Positions 1,150 through 17,621 of a DNA stretch of 34,502 nt are shown piece by piece. The notes under the pieces were generated by a model. The model was not told the origin of the DNA and ran no database searches. It saw nothing but the letters and a program-made list of their open reading frames with translations. The DNA is taken from positions 1 to 34,502 of IMG/VR virus record IMGVR_UViG_3300042261_002398; one strand, given 5' to 3'. The stretch comes from a virus. How positions within the stretch are numbered: the stretch's first letter is position 1; the number at the start of each line of letters is the position of its first letter. A program made the translations under genes and the position numbers.

Positions 1150-1920
1150 TCACCGGCCCTGAAAATTGTAAATCAGCACTTCGTTTGCCTCTTTTCCACC
1201 GCCTGCCGCGCTGGCCGAATACTGTGTCTTTACCGCCTTGATCCGGAACGCCGAGAAGATCTCGCGGACTTCCGGCCGGTCGTTTAAAGAGAGTATAAAC
1301 GCCCCTTTAATGCCCGCTAAAAGGCCCGCCAGTTCGGTGAAGTTTTCACGGGGCCAGACCACGGCATAATCCTTTTCAAATCCGTAGTACGGAGGATCCA
1401 GATAGAACAGCGCTCCGGGGGTATCGTAGCGCCGGATGCAGGTCAGCGCATCCATGCGCTCAATTACGACCCGCTGCATGCGCCGGTGAACGTCTAAAAT
1501 GCACTCTTCAATGGAGGTGAGGCTGATAGACGGTGCGCGGGTTTTAAACGCTGGCATGACCCTGCCGACCGTTTTGCCGCCGAATCCGGTGCGCTGAAGG
1601 TAATAAAACCGGACGGCGCGCTGGATATCAGTGAGCGTTGTTGTATCGGTGCGGTTCAGGATGTCGAAGATCTCGCGCGAGATAATGTAATGCTTGAAAT
1701 GGCGGAGGAATTCTTCCAAATGGTTCTGGATCACCCGCCAGAAGGTCACCAGTTCGAGGTTCATGTCGTTGATGACCTCGACTTTTGACGGCTCTTTTTC
1801 AAAGAACACCCACGCGGCACCGCAAAACGGTTCAATGTAGGTTGTGTGCTCCGGCAACAGCTTAACGATTTGCTTGGCCAACCGGCTTTTTCCACCCAGG
1901 TAACTGATCGGGCTTTTCAT
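1150..1920 (-). CDS. DNA adenine-N6 methyltransferase (Dam/D12 class)
   Basis: 256 residues. The AdoMet-binding signatures of D12-class N6-adenine methyltransferases are visible: YLGGKSRL at 7-14, EPFCGAAWVFF at 30-40 (motif I region) and the catalytic DPPYYG at 175-180, with the usual NEVLIYNF end. The start is preceded by AGAGGAG at good spacing. It is the last gene of the late operon and sits next to the phage right end, the place where Mu carries its DNA-modification gene mom. Probable role: methylating phage DNA in the cell so that host restriction enzymes do not cut the next injected genome. Target sequence unknown; a GATC-like site is only the family default. Confidence 0.92.
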   Translation of the reverse strand: MKSPISYLGGKSRLAKQIVKLLPEHTTYIEPFCGAAWVFFEKEPSKVEVINDMNLELVTFWRVIQNHLEEFLRHFKHYIISREIFDILNRTDTTTLTDIQRAVRFYYLQRTGFGGKTVGRVMPAFKTRAPSISLTSIEECILDVHRRMQRVVIERMDALTCIRRYDTPGALFYLDPPYYGFEKDYAVVWPRENFTELAGLLAGIKGAFILSLNDRPEVREIFSAFRIKAVKTQYSASAAGGGKEANEVLIYNFQGR

Positions 1921-2023: not shown

Positions 2024-2042
2024 GCGACTGTCCGTCAGTCGC
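2024..2042 (-). other. Hairpin spanning the fibre-gene stop codon
   Basis: Perfect 7-bp stem GCGACTG / CAGTCGC with a 5-nt loop (ACGGA). The fibre-gene stop codon lies inside it. There is no T-run behind it, so it is not a typical intrinsic terminator; it may protect mRNA ends or limit readthrough to the methylase gene. The rest of the 114-bp spacer to the methylase holds no gene that I can see. Confidence 0.4.
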
Positions 2043-2673
2043 TTAAAATGCAATACGTCAATAGCTTAATGACCGTAGCTCCAGATCCGGCCGAACTTGA
2101 AACCCACTCAATAATTCCGCCACTGTCTGTGATTATGGTTATGTACCCAATTTCTCCTCCAGATCCAAACCCCACCCCAGCAATGCCACTGTCTTTGTCA
2201 GACGACGCGGCTTTGTATTTGGTCTCTCCATTTTCCCGGAAATGGACAACACCACCAGTGTCAGGCGCAACGCTCAATAGCACAAAACAACGATTCGATC
2301 CGACGATTCCCGACAGATTTAGATCTGCCCAAGCGGTTGGCATCGAGTTCGAGTAAACAACTGCGCCGCTATAGCACATTCCGGCGGCCCGCGTTCCAGC
2401 AGCCAAATCTGCGGCAGATACAACGACAACACTGGATGTCCCGGCATTCACTTCCGCCGGCGTGGCAAACCTAACGATCCCACTGATTGCGGTTGTCGCC
2501 TGTTCTGGGATGGAATTATCTAAATCTTCCAGTACAGCCTGCACATCTGTGTTAGTGGAGGAAATGCGCGAAGGATCAACGGTCACCTGCTTCGCTTGCG
2601 TTTTGGGAAGCGCGACAGCATTACCAACAGTGATTAAAATAACGGCAGGCACCAAGAATGTAATATGTCTCAT
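2035..2673 (-). CDS. Tail-fibre-like protein with Sec signal peptide
   Basis: 212 residues. Start chosen at the ATG behind AAAAGGAG. Residues 1-22 look like a Sec signal peptide (MRH, then a hydrophobic stretch, cut after AVA). The mature part contains ISGIVRFATPAEVNAG followed by a VSAADLAAG segment (about residues 63-93), the collar/fibre repeat common in phage tail fibres and side-tail fibres, and a beta-rich end (RCFVLLSVAP, VHFRENGET, GYITIITDSGGIIEW) found at the C termini of many phage receptor-binding proteins. Lying just after tail gene I, it occupies the fibre (H) position. A cleavable export signal on a fibre is unexpected, because tails are assembled in the cytoplasm; see findings. 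Confidence 0.8.
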   Translation of the reverse strand: MRHITFLVPAVILITVGNAVALPKTQAKQVTVDPSRISSTNTDVQAVLEDLDNSIPEQATTAISGIVRFATPAEVNAGTSSVVVVSAADLAAGTRAAGMCYSGAVVYSNSMPTAWADLNLSGIVGSNRCFVLLSVAPDTGGVVHFRENGETKYKAASSDKDSGIAGVGFGSGGEIGYITIITDSGGIIEWVSSSAGSGATVIKLLTYCILSD

Positions 2674-2691
2674 GATAGGCTCCTTTTCTGA

Positions 2692-3045
2692 TTAATTCCC
2701 GTAATAAACAACCCTGACATCATCGTTTGCTGCGACAGGCGGGGTGAAGGTGATGGCGGGGCCAACGATCACATAATCTTCGTTTTGAACAGCCAGGAGG
2801 CGGTTAATAAAGACCTGCACGGCCGCGTCAACAACTGGGGTGTGAGCCAAAACGCATCCAGCGGTCGACCCCGTCTTGTTTTCGGAGTAGTGTGTGCCAG
2901 TCATCCGCCTCAAAATTGCCGTTCGGATCGCCAACTGGCGCAGTGGAAGGTTGTCAACACCATCAATTCCGCCCTGCACGAAGTCTGTTTCTTCGAACTG
3001 ATAAATTCCGTCCGGCCAATCACCGGTTTCGTTCTGATTTGCCAT
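2692..3045 (-). CDS. Small tail-fibre / baseplate-associated protein
   Basis: 117 residues starting MANQNETGDWPDG, chosen because GGAGG lies six bases upstream and the ATG follows the stop of tail gene I by one base. The sequence is acidic and ends in a beta-rich domain (DYVIVGPAITFTPPVAANDDVRVVYYGN is its C terminus, starting near residue 90, given here as two parts: DYVIVGPAITF and TPPVAANDDVRVVYYGN), of a type common at the ends of phage tail proteins. Directly between I and the exported fibre, it is most likely a fibre adaptor or short fibre subunit. No catalytic motif is visible. Confidence 0.65.
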   Translation of the reverse strand: MANQNETGDWPDGIYQFEETDFVQGGIDGVDNLPLRQLAIRTAILRRMTGTHYSENKTGSTAGCVLAHTPVVDAAVQVFINRLLAVQNEDYVIVGPAITFTPPVAANDDVRVVYYGN

Positions 3046-3046
3046 A

Positions 3047-3655
3047 CTAAACCTCCGTATATGTCCTTTGATAACTGCGCGATCCGTCGCGAGTGAAAAC
3101 GCCGTTGTGGCGGAAGAAGAGTTTTTGATAACCAACGCTAACAAGTCGGCATCTGGCAGGCGCAGTCTGTATCAATAGAGAGATGAGTTCTGGTGATGGC
3201 AACGCATCGGAATTACTGACGACAATAGACCACTCCGCCCAGCCCATTCCTCCACCATAAAGCACAGTTCGGTTCCTCACCACAGCACCATCGCGGCGCA
3301 ACCCATCCGCGCCAGCTTGAACGGTTGCGCTGCCGTAACCTGCGGCTGCCAGCATATCCTTGATTGATTTCAGTGTCCCTTTATAACGATGGATTGTAGT
3401 CGAAGCCTTTATGATGGCGCGTTTTTCTGCCTCGGATGCGCCCTCCGGCCACTCATCGACAGAATACGCCCAGGCCAGAAACGGGAGCACCTCGACTGGG
3501 CAGAGATCCGGATCGGTTACGTCGATAAGAATCTGCGGATCCAGATTAAAAGCCCGGCTCGCGGAAATATCGATGGCATAGCTGCCTTTCGGTGCGCGCT
3601 CCGCACTGGCGTGCGGAGCACCCGGCAGCAGCGATCTGTCAGACCGGACGACCAT
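3047..3655 (-). CDS. I: Phage tail protein I (P2 gpI family)
   Basis: 202 residues. The central block DPDLCPVEVLPFLAWAYSVD (residues about 49-68), followed by W.EGASEAEKRAIIKAS and a Y.GT...I motif, is the hallmark of P2 gpI-type baseplate proteins. In P2 this protein sits at the baseplate edge and links the wedge to the fibres. The start codon overlaps the end of gene J by one base, as expected for a coupled J-I pair, and fibre-type genes follow. Confidence 0.9.
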   Translation of the reverse strand: MVVRSDRSLLPGAPHASAERAPKGSYAIDISASRAFNLDPQILIDVTDPDLCPVEVLPFLAWAYSVDEWPEGASEAEKRAIIKASTTIHRYKGTLKSIKDMLAAAGYGSATVQAGADGLRRDGAVVRNRTVLYGGGMGWAEWSIVVSNSDALPSPELISLLIQTAPARCRLVSVGYQKLFFRHNGVFTRDGSRSYQRTYTEV

Positions 3656-4716
3656 TATTCGTCCCTCCCTACAACAGAGACGTTAATAAAGGTGCAGTAT
3701 GCCGCCTGTCCTTGATCCACTTCAATGCGTGCCGATGGCGAAACAAGGACGACTTCTTGAACCCCCTCAACATGGAGCGCGGCCATCAGGCCGGAAATTG
3801 TAATGTCGTTGCCGCATTTATGACGTGCGGCAACATAGGCCTGCACTGAGACAAGCGCATTATTGCGCACGGTCCTGGCGTCCGGTCCACCATAGATTAT
3901 CAATTGCGCGATGACGGAATATTCAATGATCTCAGCGCTCATGACTTCAGCGGTATCGCAAAGCGGCAGTCGAGTTTCAGGATCCAGCGCATCCTGAACG
4001 AACGGCAGGATGCCTGCGCGTTCACCGTCGGCTACAGCGCCAGCCAGCGCGCCGGTAATGACCGTTACGCCAGTGGCAAAGTCATCGTCAAGGGTGAAAA
4101 TCGCGCCGCCCTCAAAGGCCAATTCCTGCCCGTTTGAAAGGGGTGCAAGAACGCCGGTAACGGCGAGCGATGTGTCGGCGTCGACATAGCCTTCCGGATG
4201 GTTGATTCGTGCGCCGAAACATGCGCCATTCCCATCCTTAGATAACACGGCCACATTCACGCGGCCGCCGATGCCCGGATTCCAGACAGAAACGTCTTTT
4301 ATTCCGCTATGTGCCGAGAGGGCGTGGAATTTATAGGCACCGACCGGACCGGCCACAGAATAGGCTTCCGGAGCCAATACAAGGCGTGCGCGGAAAGCAT
4401 CATTCGTTTCGCCAGCAAGACGGGCTACCGGAACGGCCATCGATGCGCCGATATGGTCAAGGTCTGCATCCAGCGCAAAAGCCAGCATGCGCGCCTTGGC
4501 CTTGTCGTTCATCTTCTGACGGAGCAGCAGCTCGCGATAGGCGGCCACTAAAAGAATCTTATAGGCAGGGTCGCTGGGCACCAGAGCGTTAAAGGTCGGG
4601 TCGAGCTGTTGCAGGCTCGCTAGCATTTCATTGAAGATGGCCTCGGCGGAAAGCGCTTCGACCACCTGCGGCGACGGCAGCTTGCTCAGGTCAATGGCTG
4701 TAAAAACACTGTTCAC
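3655..4716 (-). CDS. J: Baseplate assembly protein J (P2 gpJ / Mu gp47 family)
   Basis: 353 residues, the usual size for the wedge protein J. Visible family features are FNEMLASLQQLDPTFNALVPSDP near the N terminus (residues 28-50, quoted in part: FNEMLASLQQLDP), LLLRQKMNDKAKARMLAFA, and DLDHIGA, the conserved 'L..LG' position. It starts with GTG in a GTGA overlap with the stop of gene W, so translation is probably coupled. It builds the baseplate wedge with W and I. Confidence 0.93.
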   Translation of the reverse strand: MNSVFTAIDLSKLPSPQVVEALSAEAIFNEMLASLQQLDPTFNALVPSDPAYKILLVAAYRELLLRQKMNDKAKARMLAFALDADLDHIGASMAVPVARLAGETNDAFRARLVLAPEAYSVAGPVGAYKFHALSAHSGIKDVSVWNPGIGGRVNVAVLSKDGNGACFGARINHPEGYVDADTSLAVTGVLAPLSNGQELAFEGGAIFTLDDDFATGVTVITGALAGAVADGERAGILPFVQDALDPETRLPLCDTAEVMSAEIIEYSVIAQLIIYGGPDARTVRNNALVSVQAYVAARHKCGNDITISGLMAALHVEGVQEVVLVSPSARIEVDQGQAAYCTFINVSVVGRDE

Positions 4717-7783: not shown

Positions 7784-9776
7784 ACAACCTCGCTCTCTGC
7801 TGGGCGGCATTAGCGCGCTGTCTGGCGTCTAGTTCGCGGGAAACCGTCCGGGCAATGTCTTCGCTGTTTTGCCCCGGCGCGGCATTGATGGTAATCGGGG
7901 CGTTGACCATGCTACTGGAATTCACCCGCGCCTCGGCGATCGTGCGCTCAATCGGCGTGATGCCGGACCCGGCGGCTTCCGGCAGTGGAGCAGCGCTGAC
8001 GGCCGCACCGGCCATTGCCCCGGCGGTTGCGGCACGCGCGCCAACGCCAAATGCCGATCCGATCCGGCTGATTATTCCACCGATCCGTTTCCACATCCCC
8101 TCGAAGAAATCAATAATCGGCTTCCAGTTCTTGATCAGCATCCCGAGCGGGCTAAACCCAAAAACCATCTTTATCACACCCCATAGCTTCACTGCGCCGA
8201 CCTTGATCCCATCCCACAGCTTCACAAAAAACCCGCTGATCGGCTCCCAATACTTGATCAGCAGAAAAGCGGCCACGGCGATCGCCATAATGACCAACCC
8301 GACCGGATTGGCGATCAGCCCTTTCAAGGCCAAACCAAACTTCATTACGCCACCCGCGCACAGCTTAAAAATCACTGGCAGCACATTCAGGCCGGTCGTC
8401 GCCAGAAAGCCCTGCGCACTCAACAACTTAAGGAGGGTCACCGTAACCGCCAGCCCTGTTCTCAATGCGGCCATAGCTGGCAGCAGAACGCCCAGCGTAA
8501 CCAAAAACGCCCCCAGCGCGGCAACAATGCCCAGAACCAGCGTGCTAACCGGCCCGCCCGCTTTCACAATCCAAATCAAAAGCCGCGCCAGCCATGCCAA
8601 CCCCGCTAACGCCGGAGAGAAAAACGCCTTCAGCTTGTCTCCCACTTCAAGCCTTAAAACCTGCCACGCATTAACCAGCTCTTCGAGCGCACTCTTATCG
8701 TTTTTGTCAATTGCCTCGCCAATCCGCAAGGCGGCACCTTCTGCGCTCCGCAGCGATTCGATCAGCTTCGAAACACCTCCGGCCCCCGATTTCTCAATCA
8801 GCCCCGACATCCGCACAGCAGCGCGATCGCCAAAAACCTCCGTCAAAATCCCAAGCCGTTCGCCCGATCCAAGCCCCTGCATCGAGGCGGCCATTTCCTT
8901 GAGCAGTGCCAGCGGGTTGCGCAGGTTACCCTCCAGATCAAACGCCTCAATCCCTAAAGATGAAAGCTGTTTGGTCGCCGCGGCACCTGGGCCGGTCAGT
9001 TTGGTCAACATCATTTGCAACGCAGTGCCGGACGAAGAAGAATCCATCCCCGCATCGGCCAGAGCCCCGATAAAAACCGCCGTGTCACCCAGACTCATTC
9101 CGGCAGCGCGTGCAGCCGGGGCACACTCCGCCAACGCATCGCCCAGCCCGGCCACGCCAGCCGCCGATCGGCTGCCAACCTGCGCGATCACATCCGCCAC
9201 ACGGGCCGACTCGCCAGCCGCCAAATTAAACCCTCTCAACGCCGCCGATGTAATCTCTGACGCCCGTCCAAAATCCTGCACCCCGGCATTCGCCAGCGCA
9301 CTAACGCTCGGAAGCATCGTCAGCATCTCCTGCGCACTGTATCCGCGCCGGGTCAGGGTCAGCAGGCTCGCCCCAAGATCATCCAGCGAATCATCACTGG
9401 TAGAGGCCATCTGCTTAACCGTCGCCTCCAGCGCGTCCATCTGGTCGCTGGATCCACGGGTTAGCGCAGCAACCTCCGACATCACCGCGCCAAACTCCAT
9501 CGAGACGTTTGCAGCCTCTTTCATCGGGTTTAAAATGCCGTCGCCCATCTTGCGGAGTTCCGCCCCGATAAAGGTCAGATTCTGGGCCCGCTGCAGTTCG
9601 CCGTTAAGCCCCTCCATCGCCTTTCCAACTGCCGCCGTTGACTTAGCGGCCGCAACCGCCGAACTGCTCAACTCCGACAACCCGGCAGAAGTACCCCGGA
9701 TCACCTTGGCAATATCCTTCATCCCCGCGCTCACGCGGTTGACTAAATCGAACTGAAGTGTTACTCCTAAGGCCAT
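7776..9776 (-). CDS. T: Tail tape measure protein (TP901 family)
   Basis: 666 residues. The TP901 core is clear in the first half: FGAVMSEVAALTRGSSDQMD, RGYSAQEMLTMLPSVSALA, FNLAAGESARVADVIAQV and GMSLGDTAVFIGALADAGM, followed by KLTGPGAAATKQLSSLGI. Two long hydrophobic stretches follow (about residues 390-460 and 480-510), as is usual for tape measures that help DNA cross the inner membrane. An alanine/glycine-rich tail ends in coiled-coil-like sequence. Length sets tail length; 666 residues predicts a tail around 0.1 micrometre using the family rule of about 0.15 nm per residue. GGAGGGG precedes the ATG. Confidence 0.95.
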   Translation of the reverse strand: MALGVTLQFDLVNRVSAGMKDIAKVIRGTSAGLSELSSSAVAAAKSTAAVGKAMEGLNGELQRAQNLTFIGAELRKMGDGILNPMKEAANVSMEFGAVMSEVAALTRGSSDQMDALEATVKQMASTSDDSLDDLGASLLTLTRRGYSAQEMLTMLPSVSALANAGVQDFGRASEITSAALRGFNLAAGESARVADVIAQVGSRSAAGVAGLGDALAECAPAARAAGMSLGDTAVFIGALADAGMDSSSSGTALQMMLTKLTGPGAAATKQLSSLGIEAFDLEGNLRNPLALLKEMAASMQGLGSGERLGILTEVFGDRAAVRMSGLIEKSGAGGVSKLIESLRSAEGAALRIGEAIDKNDKSALEELVNAWQVLRLEVGDKLKAFFSPALAGLAWLARLLIWIVKAGGPVSTLVLGIVAALGAFLVTLGVLLPAMAALRTGLAVTVTLLKLLSAQGFLATTGLNVLPVIFKLCAGGVMKFGLALKGLIANPVGLVIMAIAVAAFLLIKYWEPISGFFVKLWDGIKVGAVKLWGVIKMVFGFSPLGMLIKNWKPIIDFFEGMWKRIGGIISRIGSAFGVGARAATAGAMAGAAVSAAPLPEAAGSGITPIERTIAEARVNSSSMVNAPITINAAPGQNSEDIARTVSRELDARQRANAAQQRARLYD

Positions 9777-10053
9777 GACTCAACCCCTCCAGAAGGATGA
9801 AACCGTAAAGCGCAGCCTGTTTGATATTTTCTTCACGGCACTGCTCCTTTTCACGGTAAAACTCTTTCTCTATGCCTGCGGATTTTTCTTCACCGGCTGC
9901 CTGTTGATCTACGACGCGCCCGGTTACTTCACCACCGGGATTATTCTGACCATTCTATGGGCTCCATCCGGATACGCCCTGTTTTTCAAAAACAAACCCT
10001 TCTTCGGGTTTCCCGTTCGCCGGGCTGGTTTTTCCTCCGGCGACGGCATTTAG
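9775..10053 (+). CDS. Possible membrane protein on the opposite strand
   Basis: 92 residues, read against all other phage genes. The ATG shares the CATG of the tape-measure start. There are about three hydrophobic segments (FDIFFTALLLFTVKLFLYAC, then FFFTGCLLIY, then FTTGIILTILWAPSGYALFF), separated and flanked by charged residues, with a K-rich N terminus, as in a real small membrane protein. The minus strand of this 270-bp stretch has only fragments of up to about 41 codons. Against it: no good ribosome site (only TAAGG close to the ATG) and the gene would start inside the tape-measure start. A lysogenic-conversion gene or a chance frame are both possible. Confidence 0.4.
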   Translation: MTQPLQKDETVKRSLFDIFFTALLLFTVKLFLYACGFFFTGCLLIYDAPGYFTTGIILTILWAPSGYALFFKNKPFFGFPVRRAGFSSGDGI

Positions 10054-14532: not shown

Positions 14533-15798
14533 TTATTCGACTGTGCCGCCGATGTAGTAGAGATAGTTTGTCGGCAACGTGACCTGCGTATTGGTTATGG
14601 CGACCAATGCGCATTGCACAACGGTGCCGCTAGCAACCGATGCCGGTATTGGCACAATCACCCGGAACGGCATATTCGATCCGGCAGCGCAGAACCCGTG
14701 GGTGTTGGCGAAGAAATTACTCGAGACCGTTTGGTTGGCAATATGCCCTTCCGGGGAGATTGCGTTGAACCGGAAATTCATATTAAACCCGGCTGTTGGC
14801 GTGTTTGTACTATGAGGGCCAAAAATCCACCACGACACGAAATTCGTTGCGGCCACTGGGATGGGAATGCCGACCGCCGAAGAGCTGTCAGCCCCAAAGC
14901 GAACTCCGGTGTAGCGCAACGAGATCGGCACAGGCATCTGCATTAAAACCGCACCTCCGCCAAATACTCCCGGCCACGGCACTGCGTACGAGCCTGCCAT
15001 CTGGACGGCCAGATCGGCCTGCGTGGCGACACGTTCGCCGTTTTGTTTAATGATGGCGCTAAAATCGGCCACCGATCCACTACCGCTCGGAATGGTTGCC
15101 CGGAAGTACGCATAGCTGCCGTAATTGGTCCCGGATGTCCGAAACACATAGGTTGATGCGTTGGTTATGATCCCCGCCAACGGAGCGTTTTGCCATGTAC
15201 CTGTGATTAAATTAGTCGTGTACATGATGGTCGGTTGCACCTCACCAATTGCCGTGGTGATCTCGAAATTCGGAGAGGTGAAGCGGAATGAGTTGATTTG
15301 TACAGCGGCTAGCTCACTAACGATCTCGAGCAGGGTGTTGCCATAAACGCTTAGGCGGAATTCCCCATTTTCCTCCGATATTTCCGCCGGACCGCTCAGC
15401 GCGCCCCATCCGCCCAGTGTAAGCAGTCTCCACCCCTCTCCAAGCTGTATAGCGTGGCCGTTGGCGTTTAAATCTTGCGTCAGCGCATCGCCTTCCTGCC
15501 AGCCTGCACCATCGCCAATCCGGACTCCACCGGCCGACACTCCATCCCCAACGCGCACATCTCCCGGCAAATCGGTGATGCGCACGATGACCCCTTCTGT
15601 GAGGATAGTTTCAGCCACTTCCGCCGAGGTCATTTTTGCGACGGGCGCAAGCGTTTGGTTGGCAGCGTGCGATGACAGCATCACTCCAAAAAGCAGCGCC
15701 ACCAGCACACCACCGGGATTTCGGTGAAGTTGCAAGTGTCTCATGGACAACATACCCTGCCCACCTGGGCAGTGCTGGCGGCAAATTTGATTGATCAT
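14533..15798 (-). CDS. Exported fibre-like protein
   Basis: 421 residues from the ATG behind a strong AAGGAGG; a second possible start is the ATG of MRHLQLHRN at residue 19. A hydrophobic core GVLVALLFGVMLSSHA (residues 30-45) then marks a signal peptide. The mature part begins with acidic repeats (VRVGDGVSAGGVRIGDG) and TQDLNANGHAI, typical of phage tail fibres. Residues about 190-235 (TIMYTTNLITGTWQNAP … SYAYFRATIP) resemble a module of Verrucomicrobia-type secreted proteins. The rest is beta-rich with WWIFGPHSTNTP and ends YYIGGTVE. Function unknown; a surface or virion-attached adhesin fits what is seen. Confidence 0.7.
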   Translation of the reverse strand: MINQICRQHCPGGQGMLSMRHLQLHRNPGGVLVALLFGVMLSSHAANQTLAPVAKMTSAEVAETILTEGVIVRITDLPGDVRVGDGVSAGGVRIGDGAGWQEGDALTQDLNANGHAIQLGEGWRLLTLGGWGALSGPAEISEENGEFRLSVYGNTLLEIVSELAAVQINSFRFTSPNFEITTAIGEVQPTIMYTTNLITGTWQNAPLAGIITNASTYVFRTSGTNYGSYAYFRATIPSGSGSVADFSAIIKQNGERVATQADLAVQMAGSYAVPWPGVFGGGAVLMQMPVPISLRYTGVRFGADSSSAVGIPIPVAATNFVSWWIFGPHSTNTPTAGFNMNFRFNAISPEGHIANQTVSSNFFANTHGFCAAGSNMPFRVIVPIPASVASGTVVQCALVAITNTQVTLPTNYLYYIGGTVE

Positions 15799-15809
15799 AA
15801 ATACCCTCC

Positions 15810-17099
15810 TTAAAATTTTGGCGGTCCGGGGTTGAAGTTGGTGAAGCCCATCGCGTTAAAATCCGCGTCAGTGATGCTGTCGGTATCACAGCCTAGCGCG
15901 GCAGCGTCTGCCCTGATCTGCGCATTCCCCATAAACACCGGACAATAGCCCCCCAGCGATGTGACCATTGTCCCGACAAGAATCACCCGGTTAGTTGCAG
16001 CGGCAATGCGCAAGATTGGGCTGCCAGAGTCGCCAACTATAGGGCCTTTGGCATAAAACACGCCGGGCTCGGTCGTTAGTGGAAAGATGCCGTCGTCTGA
16101 AACATGGTATCCGGCATAAGCCGCCTCATATTGATCGATCCAGAATTGAAGAAGCGTGCCGGAATAGCTGCCCCTGTAAGGTATAAAGTCAGCCTGATTC
16201 TCGGGGCATAAAAGCGCTGGAACGATGCCGTCGGGCAAAACGGAAGCACTCAACCGGCCAATACGAAAATCAGAAAAAGACTTCCGGCTTGAGATCATCG
16301 TGCGAGACACCACGGTGTTGGAGGCCGTCACAAACCGCACTGTTGCTCCAGGCGCAATCGGGAAGTGATCAGCGAACAGGATGCAGTCCGCGCCGATCAG
16401 CGTGCCAGCGCGCTGCCTGCCGCCGGTCGAGTTCCAAGGGCTAATGCACGTCAAATTTATGTCGGCAACCCAGCTGTCCGGGTTGCGTACATAATTAGTG
16501 GCCACGTGATCTTGCGCGGAAAAAACAGCCTTATCACTGCCGTCTCCCATCCGCGCGGAAATCGCCGCAGTAAACGCATAAGCGGCTGACCCTGTGACGC
16601 ATCCGACGACCACGTCGTTTGTTATGGAGGACAGTGAAACAACCAGATTCGTAGTGCGTGAGAAATCTCCGATTGTGGCGGTTACCGTGCAGGTGCCCGG
16701 AGCTACATACCAGACCTTGGCCACAGTAGTTGTCGCCACGGATGGATGGGCCGATATGACGGCCGGAGGAGCGAACGCCGCAGAGCGCACACCGGAATAT
16801 GCAATCTCCCACGAGCTGCCTTCTGCGCTATACTGCCGTCGCGACACGACAACATCCTTGTTTGTTAAGATCGACGTGGCATCTGGCACCGCATCAGACA
16901 CTTTTGAGAACGTCCACTGGAACCAGTCTGGGTAAAACCAGTCGCCATCAAGATCGGCCTGACCAACCGATTGGATCTCTAGTACACTGATTCTTCCACC
17001 AACATCCTCCGCCGGATTTATCACCGCTCCGGAGGCCCGGAGGCCAACAAGCAGCGCCAGCAGGCCAAACAAAATCGCACGTCCGTATCTGGTCTCCAT
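15810..17099 (-). CDS. Exported trypsin-like serine protease
   Basis: 429 residues with signal peptide (METRYGRAILFGLLALLVGL, cut near ASG-AV). Chymotrypsin-fold triad: His245 in LFADHFPI, Asp277 in SDFRIGRL, Ser358 in the classic GDSGSP motif (356-361). A lead-in of about 200 residues contains an Ig-like segment (GTCTVTATIGDFSRTTNLVVS). The C terminus (DADFNAMGFTNFNP) resembles ends of other phage-linked Verrucomicrobia proteases, as I recall them. AAAGG precedes the ATG. Protease genes of this kind are not part of Mu or P2. It may act in the envelope on receptors or on the exported fibre-like proteins beside it; that is inference. Confidence 0.85.
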   Translation of the reverse strand: METRYGRAILFGLLALLVGLRASGAVINPAEDVGGRISVLEIQSVGQADLDGDWFYPDWFQWTFSKVSDAVPDATSILTNKDVVVSRRQYSAEGSSWEIAYSGVRSAAFAPPAVISAHPSVATTTVAKVWYVAPGTCTVTATIGDFSRTTNLVVSLSSITNDVVVGCVTGSAAYAFTAAISARMGDGSDKAVFSAQDHVATNYVRNPDSWVADINLTCISPWNSTGGRQRAGTLIGADCILFADHFPIAPGATVRFVTASNTVVSRTMISSRKSFSDFRIGRLSASVLPDGIVPALLCPENQADFIPYRGSYSGTLLQFWIDQYEAAYAGYHVSDDGIFPLTTEPGVFYAKGPIVGDSGSPILRIAAATNRVILVGTMVTSLGGYCPVFMGNAQIRADAAALGCDTDSITDADFNAMGFTNFNPGPPKF

Positions 17100-17113
17100 C
17101 GGGATCCTTTCTT

Positions 17114-17127
17114 AAAGTCTAAGGCCG
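17114..17127 (-). repeat. Heptamer array, two degenerate units
   Basis: AAAGTCT AAGGCCG on the + strand, in the 17100-17135 spacer between the gene at 17136 and the protease gene. A worn copy of the AAAGCCT family in the same orientation. Confidence 0.5.
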
Positions 17128-17135
17128 TTTGTTTC

Positions 17136-17621
17136 CTACCACTCGCATCCGCGCAGCTCGCTGCTGCCGTCTGCCGATGCCCGGATCTCCGCCTGGGGAC
17201 AGGAAGGCCCGCCGTCGCTCCATGATCCGCGCGGCCAGAGCCGCACGCCGCCAACTCCGCCGCCGATCGTCAGATCCACAATATTGGTTCCGGCGTTGAC
17301 AATCGCGAACCCGGAGCGCGGGCCAAAGGGAACAAACTCGGCCACCACGGTGCCGTTGGTAACCGTTTCCTCAGCCGTCGGCGCGTTGGTTCCGGAGGTT
17401 CCTCCGGTGCGCACCAGATAAAACTGCTGCGCGGCCGTCATGAAATAGGTTCCGGCTGTATAGGCCGTGCTCTTTGTCCAGACCGGCACCCGGCCAACCT
17501 TCAGGTTGCGCTCCGGGAGCACCACGGTTGAATTGGTTCCGGCTGTCACCGTGAAGTTTTGCTGCGCCAGTGCGCTCAGCGCCACGACCACCAACATTCC
17601 AATCAGTCCTATGCGTCTCAT
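17136..17621 (-). CDS. Exported virion-module protein
   Basis: 161 residues, start behind AAAGGAGG. Signal peptide 1-19 (RRIGLIGMLVVVALSALA, cut before QQ). The mature protein has W.KSTAYTAGTYFMTAAQQFYLVRTGGTSG.NAPT, a module frequent in phage structural proteins (W...Y..G..V......Y....GTSG..P), then SGFAIVNAGTN, a glycine-rich strand and RLWPRGSW. The C terminus is a beta-strand ending in EW. It is the first gene of the exported trio, 14 bases after gp36 in the direction of reading. A decoration or fibre-like role is likely; export is the odd part. Confidence 0.7.
   Translation of the reverse strand: MRRIGLIGMLVVVALSALAQQNFTVTAGTNSTVVLPERNLKVGRVPVWTKSTAYTAGTYFMTAAQQFYLVRTGGTSGTNAPTAEETVTNGTVVAEFVPFGPRSGFAIVNAGTNIVDLTIGGGVGGVRLWPRGSWSDGGPSCPQAEIRASADGSSELRGCEW

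Follow-up and report, generated by a model that had tools for sequence, protein, structure and literature searches.

A split tail fibre with a predicted Sec signal peptide on its distal half in a Mu-like prophage

The fibre locus and its neighbours

The stretch of DNA analysed here (the window) is the source record in its full length of 34,502 bases. Its gene complement is that of a Mu-like prophage, with most genes on the minus strand. Family matches cover gp36 (PF07030), a gp48/I-like protein (PF09684), baseplate proteins and a D12 methyltransferase, and the remaining names of late-operon genes are our own reading of the list of open reading frames. The last tail gene ahead of the methyltransferase gene encodes a fibre protein with a signal-like N-terminus, hereafter SP-fibre. 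It follows, after a gap of 18 bp, a short gene for a fibre stub (Table 1).

The start of SP-fibre is well supported because AAGGAG lies six bases before its ATG; purine-rich ribosome sites also precede the fibre in 5/5 relatives. A wrong start codon was ruled out by this Shine-Dalgarno sequence and by the signal present in all six homologues. Read-through from stub to fibre was also ruled out, since the fibre of one relative (L002, with a gap of 17 bases) sits in a different frame; the gap is 18 bases in L004, as in the window, and 15 in L003. The six fibre homologues share no internal start preceded by a Shine-Dalgarno sequence from which a cytosolic form could arise, and a leaderless form made from a second start was rejected on these grounds.

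Two further reading frames lie on the plus strand. A host-like gene at 1-1089, with a signal-like N-terminus of its own and a weak Pel9A-like beta-helix match, is apparently cut by the right end of the prophage near 1080-1100. A hydrophobic frame of 92 aa at 9775-10053, opposite to the late operon and just before the tape-measure gene, is conserved in L004 (2507-2785, minus) and L022 (8268-8546, plus).

Table 1. Features of the fibre locus and of the gp36-gpG interval in the window
Feature	Position	Strand	Basis
D12-class adenine methyltransferase, next gene past the fibre	1150..1920	-	PF02086, 7.6e-28
SP-fibre, 212 aa, predicted exported tail-fibre protein, predicted distal half of a split fibre	2035..2673	-	ORF (ATG at 2673, stop 2035-2037); phrog_910 tail collar fibre, 3.7e-8; syntenic relatives
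C-terminal tip, residues 93-212, sequence unrelated to the tips of five relatives	2038..2397	-	comparison; no Pfam match
Mature N-terminal domain, residues 22-92, gp12-like TNVQxxLEDLD and GxVRFATxxEV repeat	2398..2610	-	PHROG and gp12 comparisons
Predicted signal peptide of Sec type, residues 1-21, cut at AVA/LPK	2611..2673	-	sequence features and scorer
Ribosome-binding site AAGGAG, 6 bases 5' of the SP-fibre ATG	2680..2685	-	read from sequence
Stub, 117 aa, Mu/P2-type fibre N-terminus and small domain, separate gene	2692..3045	-	phrog_10372, phrog_3100 tail fiber; alignment
gp48/P2-I-like tail protein	3047..3655	-	PF09684, 8.7e-22
gp47/P2-J-like baseplate protein	3655..4716	-	phrog_4226 and phrog_6 baseplate
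62-aa protein, single hydrophobic segment	14335..14523	-	signal scan
421-aa ORF, fibre-like GDGVSAGGVRIGDG stretch by eye	14533..15798	-	signal-like segment if started at 15753
429-aa predicted exported protein, GDSGSP-like stretch	15810..17099	-	signal score 13.8
161-aa predicted exported 'LPERN' protein, weakly virion-like module	17136..17621	-	signal score 16.0; family of six

A signal peptide at the start of the fibre protein

Residues 1-21 of SP-fibre read MRHITFLVPAVILITVGNAVA and are followed by LPKTQAKQVTVDPS, the predicted mature chain starting with LPKTQ. The segment opens with MR and continues into an uncharged run of 14 residues, ITFLVPAVILITVG, with AVA at -3 to -1 and L at +1; Cys at +1 is absent, and SP-fibre has no second hydrophobic segment. 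On a crude scorer of our own it reaches 14.3, a value of at least 14 being attained by 0.25% of 2000 shuffles of the first residues. The scorer was calibrated with proteins from three regions of the E. coli K-12 genome. We picked the labels from product names, left out lipoproteins and other unclear proteins, and fixed the threshold after the minimum of the exported class was seen; 20/20 exported proteins scored at least 11.7, none of the 97 cytosolic proteins reached 11 and 6/21 inner-membrane proteins reached 11.7. Because of these six, the scorer separates exported or anchored proteins from cytosolic ones, not signals from anchors.

Comparison of the six homologues helps with the latter distinction. 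The uncharged run has 14 residues in four of them, 17 in L006 and 23 in L008; an (A/V)xA site is present in all six, and the positive n-region and short h-region are kept. In the mature part, the highest 19-residue hydropathy ranges from 0.74 to 1.57 across the six, which leaves no further transmembrane segment. Three features favour a signal over an anchor: the short run, the invariable (A/V)xA and the absence of any further hydrophobic segment. None of the six carries a lipobox (+1 is L or V, and the first Cys lies at residue 100 or later), so that SP-fibre was ruled out as a lipoprotein. A need for disulfides as the driver of export was rejected as well, with only 1-3 Cys per fibre protein.

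Between the window and its relatives, the signal is identical at 3-12 of 21 positions and the next mature stretch at 19-29 of 36, which makes the signal the least conserved portion of the fibre N-terminal region. Such constant chemistry with changing residues argues for a signal peptide, the pattern not being that expected of a contact surface. It also disfavours an N-terminal trimerisation helix, the reading by which the earlier note proposed that its claim could fail, as the export features stay while the residues change. The Sec-like start claimed there is thus confirmed at the level of sequence: SP-fibre starts with a Sec/SPase I signal peptide, of which cleavage and final location are predicted.

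A gp12-like mature domain and swapped tips

SP-fibre contains ISGIVRFATPAEVNAGT...VVSAADL, and the fibre identity first proposed from the SAADL motif holds, with residues 26-92 matching positions 12-85 of PHROG 910 (tail collar fibre, 3.7e-8). The same PHROG matches 4/5 relatives, L006 being the exception. A tblastn search with the whole of SP-fibre gave no match in 50,697 phage records. A consensus of the mature N-terminus gave weak matches to the gp12 short tail fibres of T4-like phages (57 records in total, E from 0.2 upward), those to three T4-like phages having E of 0.4-0.7 and being weak one by one. A profile of the fibre family (A8) matches the gp12 chain 9f4b in the PDB at 1.5e-7. AlphaFold2 gave no usable model of the fibre family (pLDDT 41.6), its helix at residues 7-16 being drawn at very low confidence.

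The gp12 protein of T4 attaches to the baseplate through its N-terminus, which contacts the gp10 trimer, and to the receptor through its C-terminus (PMC3004832). Aligned with SP-fibre, the gp12 proteins of PEi20, Q7622 and EniLVp02 begin at about the mature start and have no signal-like N-terminus, the signal standing as extra sequence in front. For this reason, the signal would have been added ahead of a fibre and not have replaced a docking domain. The check proposed in the earlier note, whether the N-terminus takes the place of the baseplate-binding domain, has a negative outcome: the signal precedes a gp12-like domain, and the Mu/P2-type docking N-terminus is a separate upstream gene. The VQxVLEDLD motif also occurs within ordinary, signal-free fibre-like proteins of two other loci (L182 and L183).

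Beyond VxxADL, alignment of the six C-termini breaks down for every pair but L004 and L008. These two end in the Pfam domain Gp53-like_C (4e-16 and 4.1e-14), a tail-fibre tip that L011 has in its ordinary fibre as well, and the L002 fibre matches tail-fibre PHROGs. The tip of the window protein matches no Pfam or PHROG family, the C-terminal Collar domain of gp12 was not found in SP-fibre, and a scan of viral sequences with the tip only returned no relative. A receptor-binding type of C-terminus, claimed earlier for this protein, is thus borne out by the relatives and not by a family match of the window protein itself. Nowhere else in the window did we recognise a protein with a variable tip.

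A split fibre in related loci

Relatives were taken from IMG/VR by a protein scan (L002, L003, L004) and by a gp47 scan (L005, L006, L008). Of the seven loci that cover the place, six, including the window, have a stub paired with a signal-bearing fibre, and the signal is present in all six loci with a separate stub. The stub is about 113-117 aa long in these paired loci, L006 being cut by the contig end. The seventh locus, L005, has one fused fibre without signal, in which a stub-type N-terminus is joined to a Collar domain (PF07484, 6.4e-21), and stub and SP-fibre occupy the place of this fused fibre. The L005 contig ends soon after it, and a second fibre may lie beyond. In the window, the stub ends at 2692, and docking N-terminus and tip are not in one chain, unlike in fused fibres of the Mu/P2 type.

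A search with the stub N-terminus gave 522 relatives, of which the best 80 were looked at; three are L002, L006 and L008. In the remaining 77 of these best 80, the frame continues for at least 140 aa (three of them running off the contig), and for this reason we take the N-terminus to be fused to the fibre body there, with no signal in front. An overlapping frame of 44 aa in L048 scored 12.8 and lies inside another gene. Within 4.2 kb after gp48, signal-like starts were found in 3/110 genes of 34 further loci (out of 38 examined, four having no called gene there); the three represent one 224-aa membrane protein and include no fibre.

A first scan of genome contigs found no relative, and all that a second one brought up was seven distant gp47 relatives under proteobacterial titles. 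The C-part of the stub and the mature N-part of the fibre diverge together (Spearman 0.65; 0.61 given gp48), which offers a hint of contact between them, a weak one drawn from 15 non-independent pairs of six sequences that may reflect phylogeny. Elsewhere in the collection, a DUF1375 lipoprotein (PF07119, 3.6e-11) lies among the baseplate genes of L017 (3983-4264, minus), with similar-looking frames in L003 and L116.

Signal-bearing genes between gp36 and gpG

The earlier note had linked the fibre to an exported trio at 14533-17621. Signal-like N-termini were indeed found there, with the reservation that the 421-aa frame is signal-like only if it starts at or below 15753 or has a long n-region. 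At the level of the clade the link is real, as late and partly virion-like proteins bear export signals. In 7/7 clade loci with intact frames, the gp36-gpG interval holds at least two signal-like frames (2 to 5): 2/3 in the window, 4/4 in L018, 2/2 in L020, 4/5 in L112, 5/6 in L117, 5/6 in L118 and 2/5 in L119, the contigs of L112 and L002 coming from one metagenome and possibly from one phage. L122, at similar sheath distance, is uninformative, as the one frame in this place is truncated at its 5' end. Three loci lie further away, L123, L127 and L128, and 0/6 of their frames in this place are signal-like.

The L119 member of the LPERN family matches the virion structural family phrog_6005 (9.1e-8); AlphaFold2 gave a pLDDT of 46.2 for this family. 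The 429-aa protein shares 29% identity over 234 aa with a 661-aa protein of L119; a search in six related records did not find it (0/6), and PDB sequences gave nothing meaningful. Its GDSGSP-like stretch recalls trypsin-like proteases, with no Pfam or PDB match in support. The frame cut at its 5' end in L122 (3-2180) encodes a tailspike-like protein, of pectate-lyase type by eye, whose N-terminus is lost at the contig start.

In some cassette families, the mature parts are 70-92% identical under differing signals, and within a single phage similar signals open different proteins. The cassette signal peptides thus look interchangeable from their sequences. Starts of the MKYEKS/MRYEKG type occur on three proteins of L112 (3974-7485) and of the MRRIG type on two of L117 (84-3581). 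A rhomboid-family protein closes the cassette in four relatives, L112 (7492-8067), L117 (3581-4198), L118 (4422-5027) and L018 (2415-3005, minus); the GxSG and His positions are kept, and PF01694 was matched in the three that were tested (L018, L112 and L118). The window has no rhomboid gene, and its 62-aa protein with a single segment stands in that place.

A distal fibre half that may dock after lysis

From sequence comparison, we regard the split, the signal, the synteny, the swapping of tips and the placement in the late operon as established. The explanation that we favour, with a probability of about 0.4, is a split fibre whose distal half would be exported in lytic growth and would dock on the stub after lysis. 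The stub would keep the baseplate-docking N-terminus and stay with the tail in the cytoplasm. The downstream gene would encode the distal half that binds the receptor, made of a gp12-like N-terminal domain and a swappable tip behind a Sec signal. During lytic growth, this half would pass through Sec, be cut after AVA and trimerise in the periplasm. Once lysis mixes the compartments, it would use the newly exposed N-terminus to dock on the stub that finished virions carry, and the tail would thus be completed outside the cytoplasm. The addition of a fibre from outside after lysis, raised in the earlier note, is therefore a live option, in which we infer both the export and the docking. Searches that covered openly available papers found no report of a tailed-phage fibre exported by Sec, or docking after lysis.

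The main rival, which we hold to be unlikely, is receptor masking. The exported tip would occupy the phage's own receptors on the dying cell and never join virions, so that progeny would not be trapped on debris or the cell would be spared superinfection. Such a role suits an exported receptor-binding domain produced late, and it has a precedent in Llp of T5-like phages, an exported receptor blocker encoded beside the gene of the receptor-binding protein (PMC4728585). However, a fibre in the periplasm would have no access to a receptor on the outer surface until lysis, and a conserved gp12-like docking N-terminus would not be needed. Docking is preferred to masking because this mature N-terminus is conserved, because no other variable tip that could be the virion adhesin was recognised in the window and because the pair replaces the normal fibre of a close relative. 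The outer-surface blocker proposed earlier is also unsupported, since neither a lipobox nor another feature for crossing the outer membrane was seen and since the 18 bp gap is too short to hold a separate promoter.

It is rather improbable that SP-fibre serves the host cell as an exported adhesin or in another envelope function, a phage fibre turned secreted protein like those of the gp36-gpG cassette. The recurrence of signal-like frames in all seven intact clade loci and the similar mature parts under different signals would fit, but the genes are packed in the late operon with gaps of 1-36 bp, which is odd for a gene active in the lysogen, and the tips are swapped in the manner of phage host-range modules. 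Fainter still is the chance that the fibre is held in the membrane, its uncut hydrophobic N-terminus acting as an inner-membrane tether or cytosolic and exported pools existing side by side: the inability of the score to tell signals from anchors and the run of 23 residues in L008 speak for it, whereas the 14 uncharged residues of most homologues are short for an anchor, the (A/V)xA site is invariable and a conserved internal start is lacking. Least probable of all is that the segment is no export signal and instead a hydrophobic helix for trimerisation or baseplate contact, as the low-confidence AlphaFold2 helix might suggest; a contact surface should conserve its residues, yet this segment is the least conserved of its region, it is absent from the gp12 relatives, and unrelated late proteins of the clade bear interchangeable segments of like kind.

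Going beyond the single locus, completion of virions outside the cytoplasm may, more tentatively than docking of the fibre half itself, be a habit of this Mu-like clade. The receptor-binding half of the split fibre, and perhaps those products of the gp36-gpG cassette that resemble fibres or spikes, would be secreted through Sec with interchangeable signals and dock at lysis. Tail assembly in tailed phages is described as a cytoplasmic process. A fibre half that is conserved and syntenic and bears an export signal, together with more signal-bearing late proteins, provides a testable exception: either tails would be finished outside the cytoplasm, or receptor-binding tips would be deployed as secreted masks.

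Comparison with known systems

The two proteins of the lateral fibre of phage DT57C, LtfA and LtfB, are both cytoplasmic products as far as is known. LtfB docks on LtfA (PMC4728585), a precedent for the docking of one fibre protein on another that is proposed here; a difference is that the cited account of DT57C mentions no signal peptide. With T4-type gp12 and PHROG 910, SP-fibre shares the TNVQxxLxxLD and GxxRFAxxxEV region that opens the (mature) chain, the position after the baseplate genes and a C-terminal receptor-binding part. It departs from gp12 by its signal peptide, short body, swapped tips and upstream stub gene, and by the lack of a collar domain.

Llp of T5-like phages is small and has no fibre domains. 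Like SP-fibre, it is a protein predicted or known to be exported and encoded beside a receptor-binding gene, but Llp is a lipoprotein, whereas SP-fibre has a signal of the SPase I type, fibre domains and no lipobox. As for the Mu/P2-type fibres, the stub has their WxxGIYQxExxDPVxGG N-terminus and their place after the gp48/I gene. These fibres are normally encoded by one fused gene without signal, whereas here two genes are found, the second of them with an export signal.
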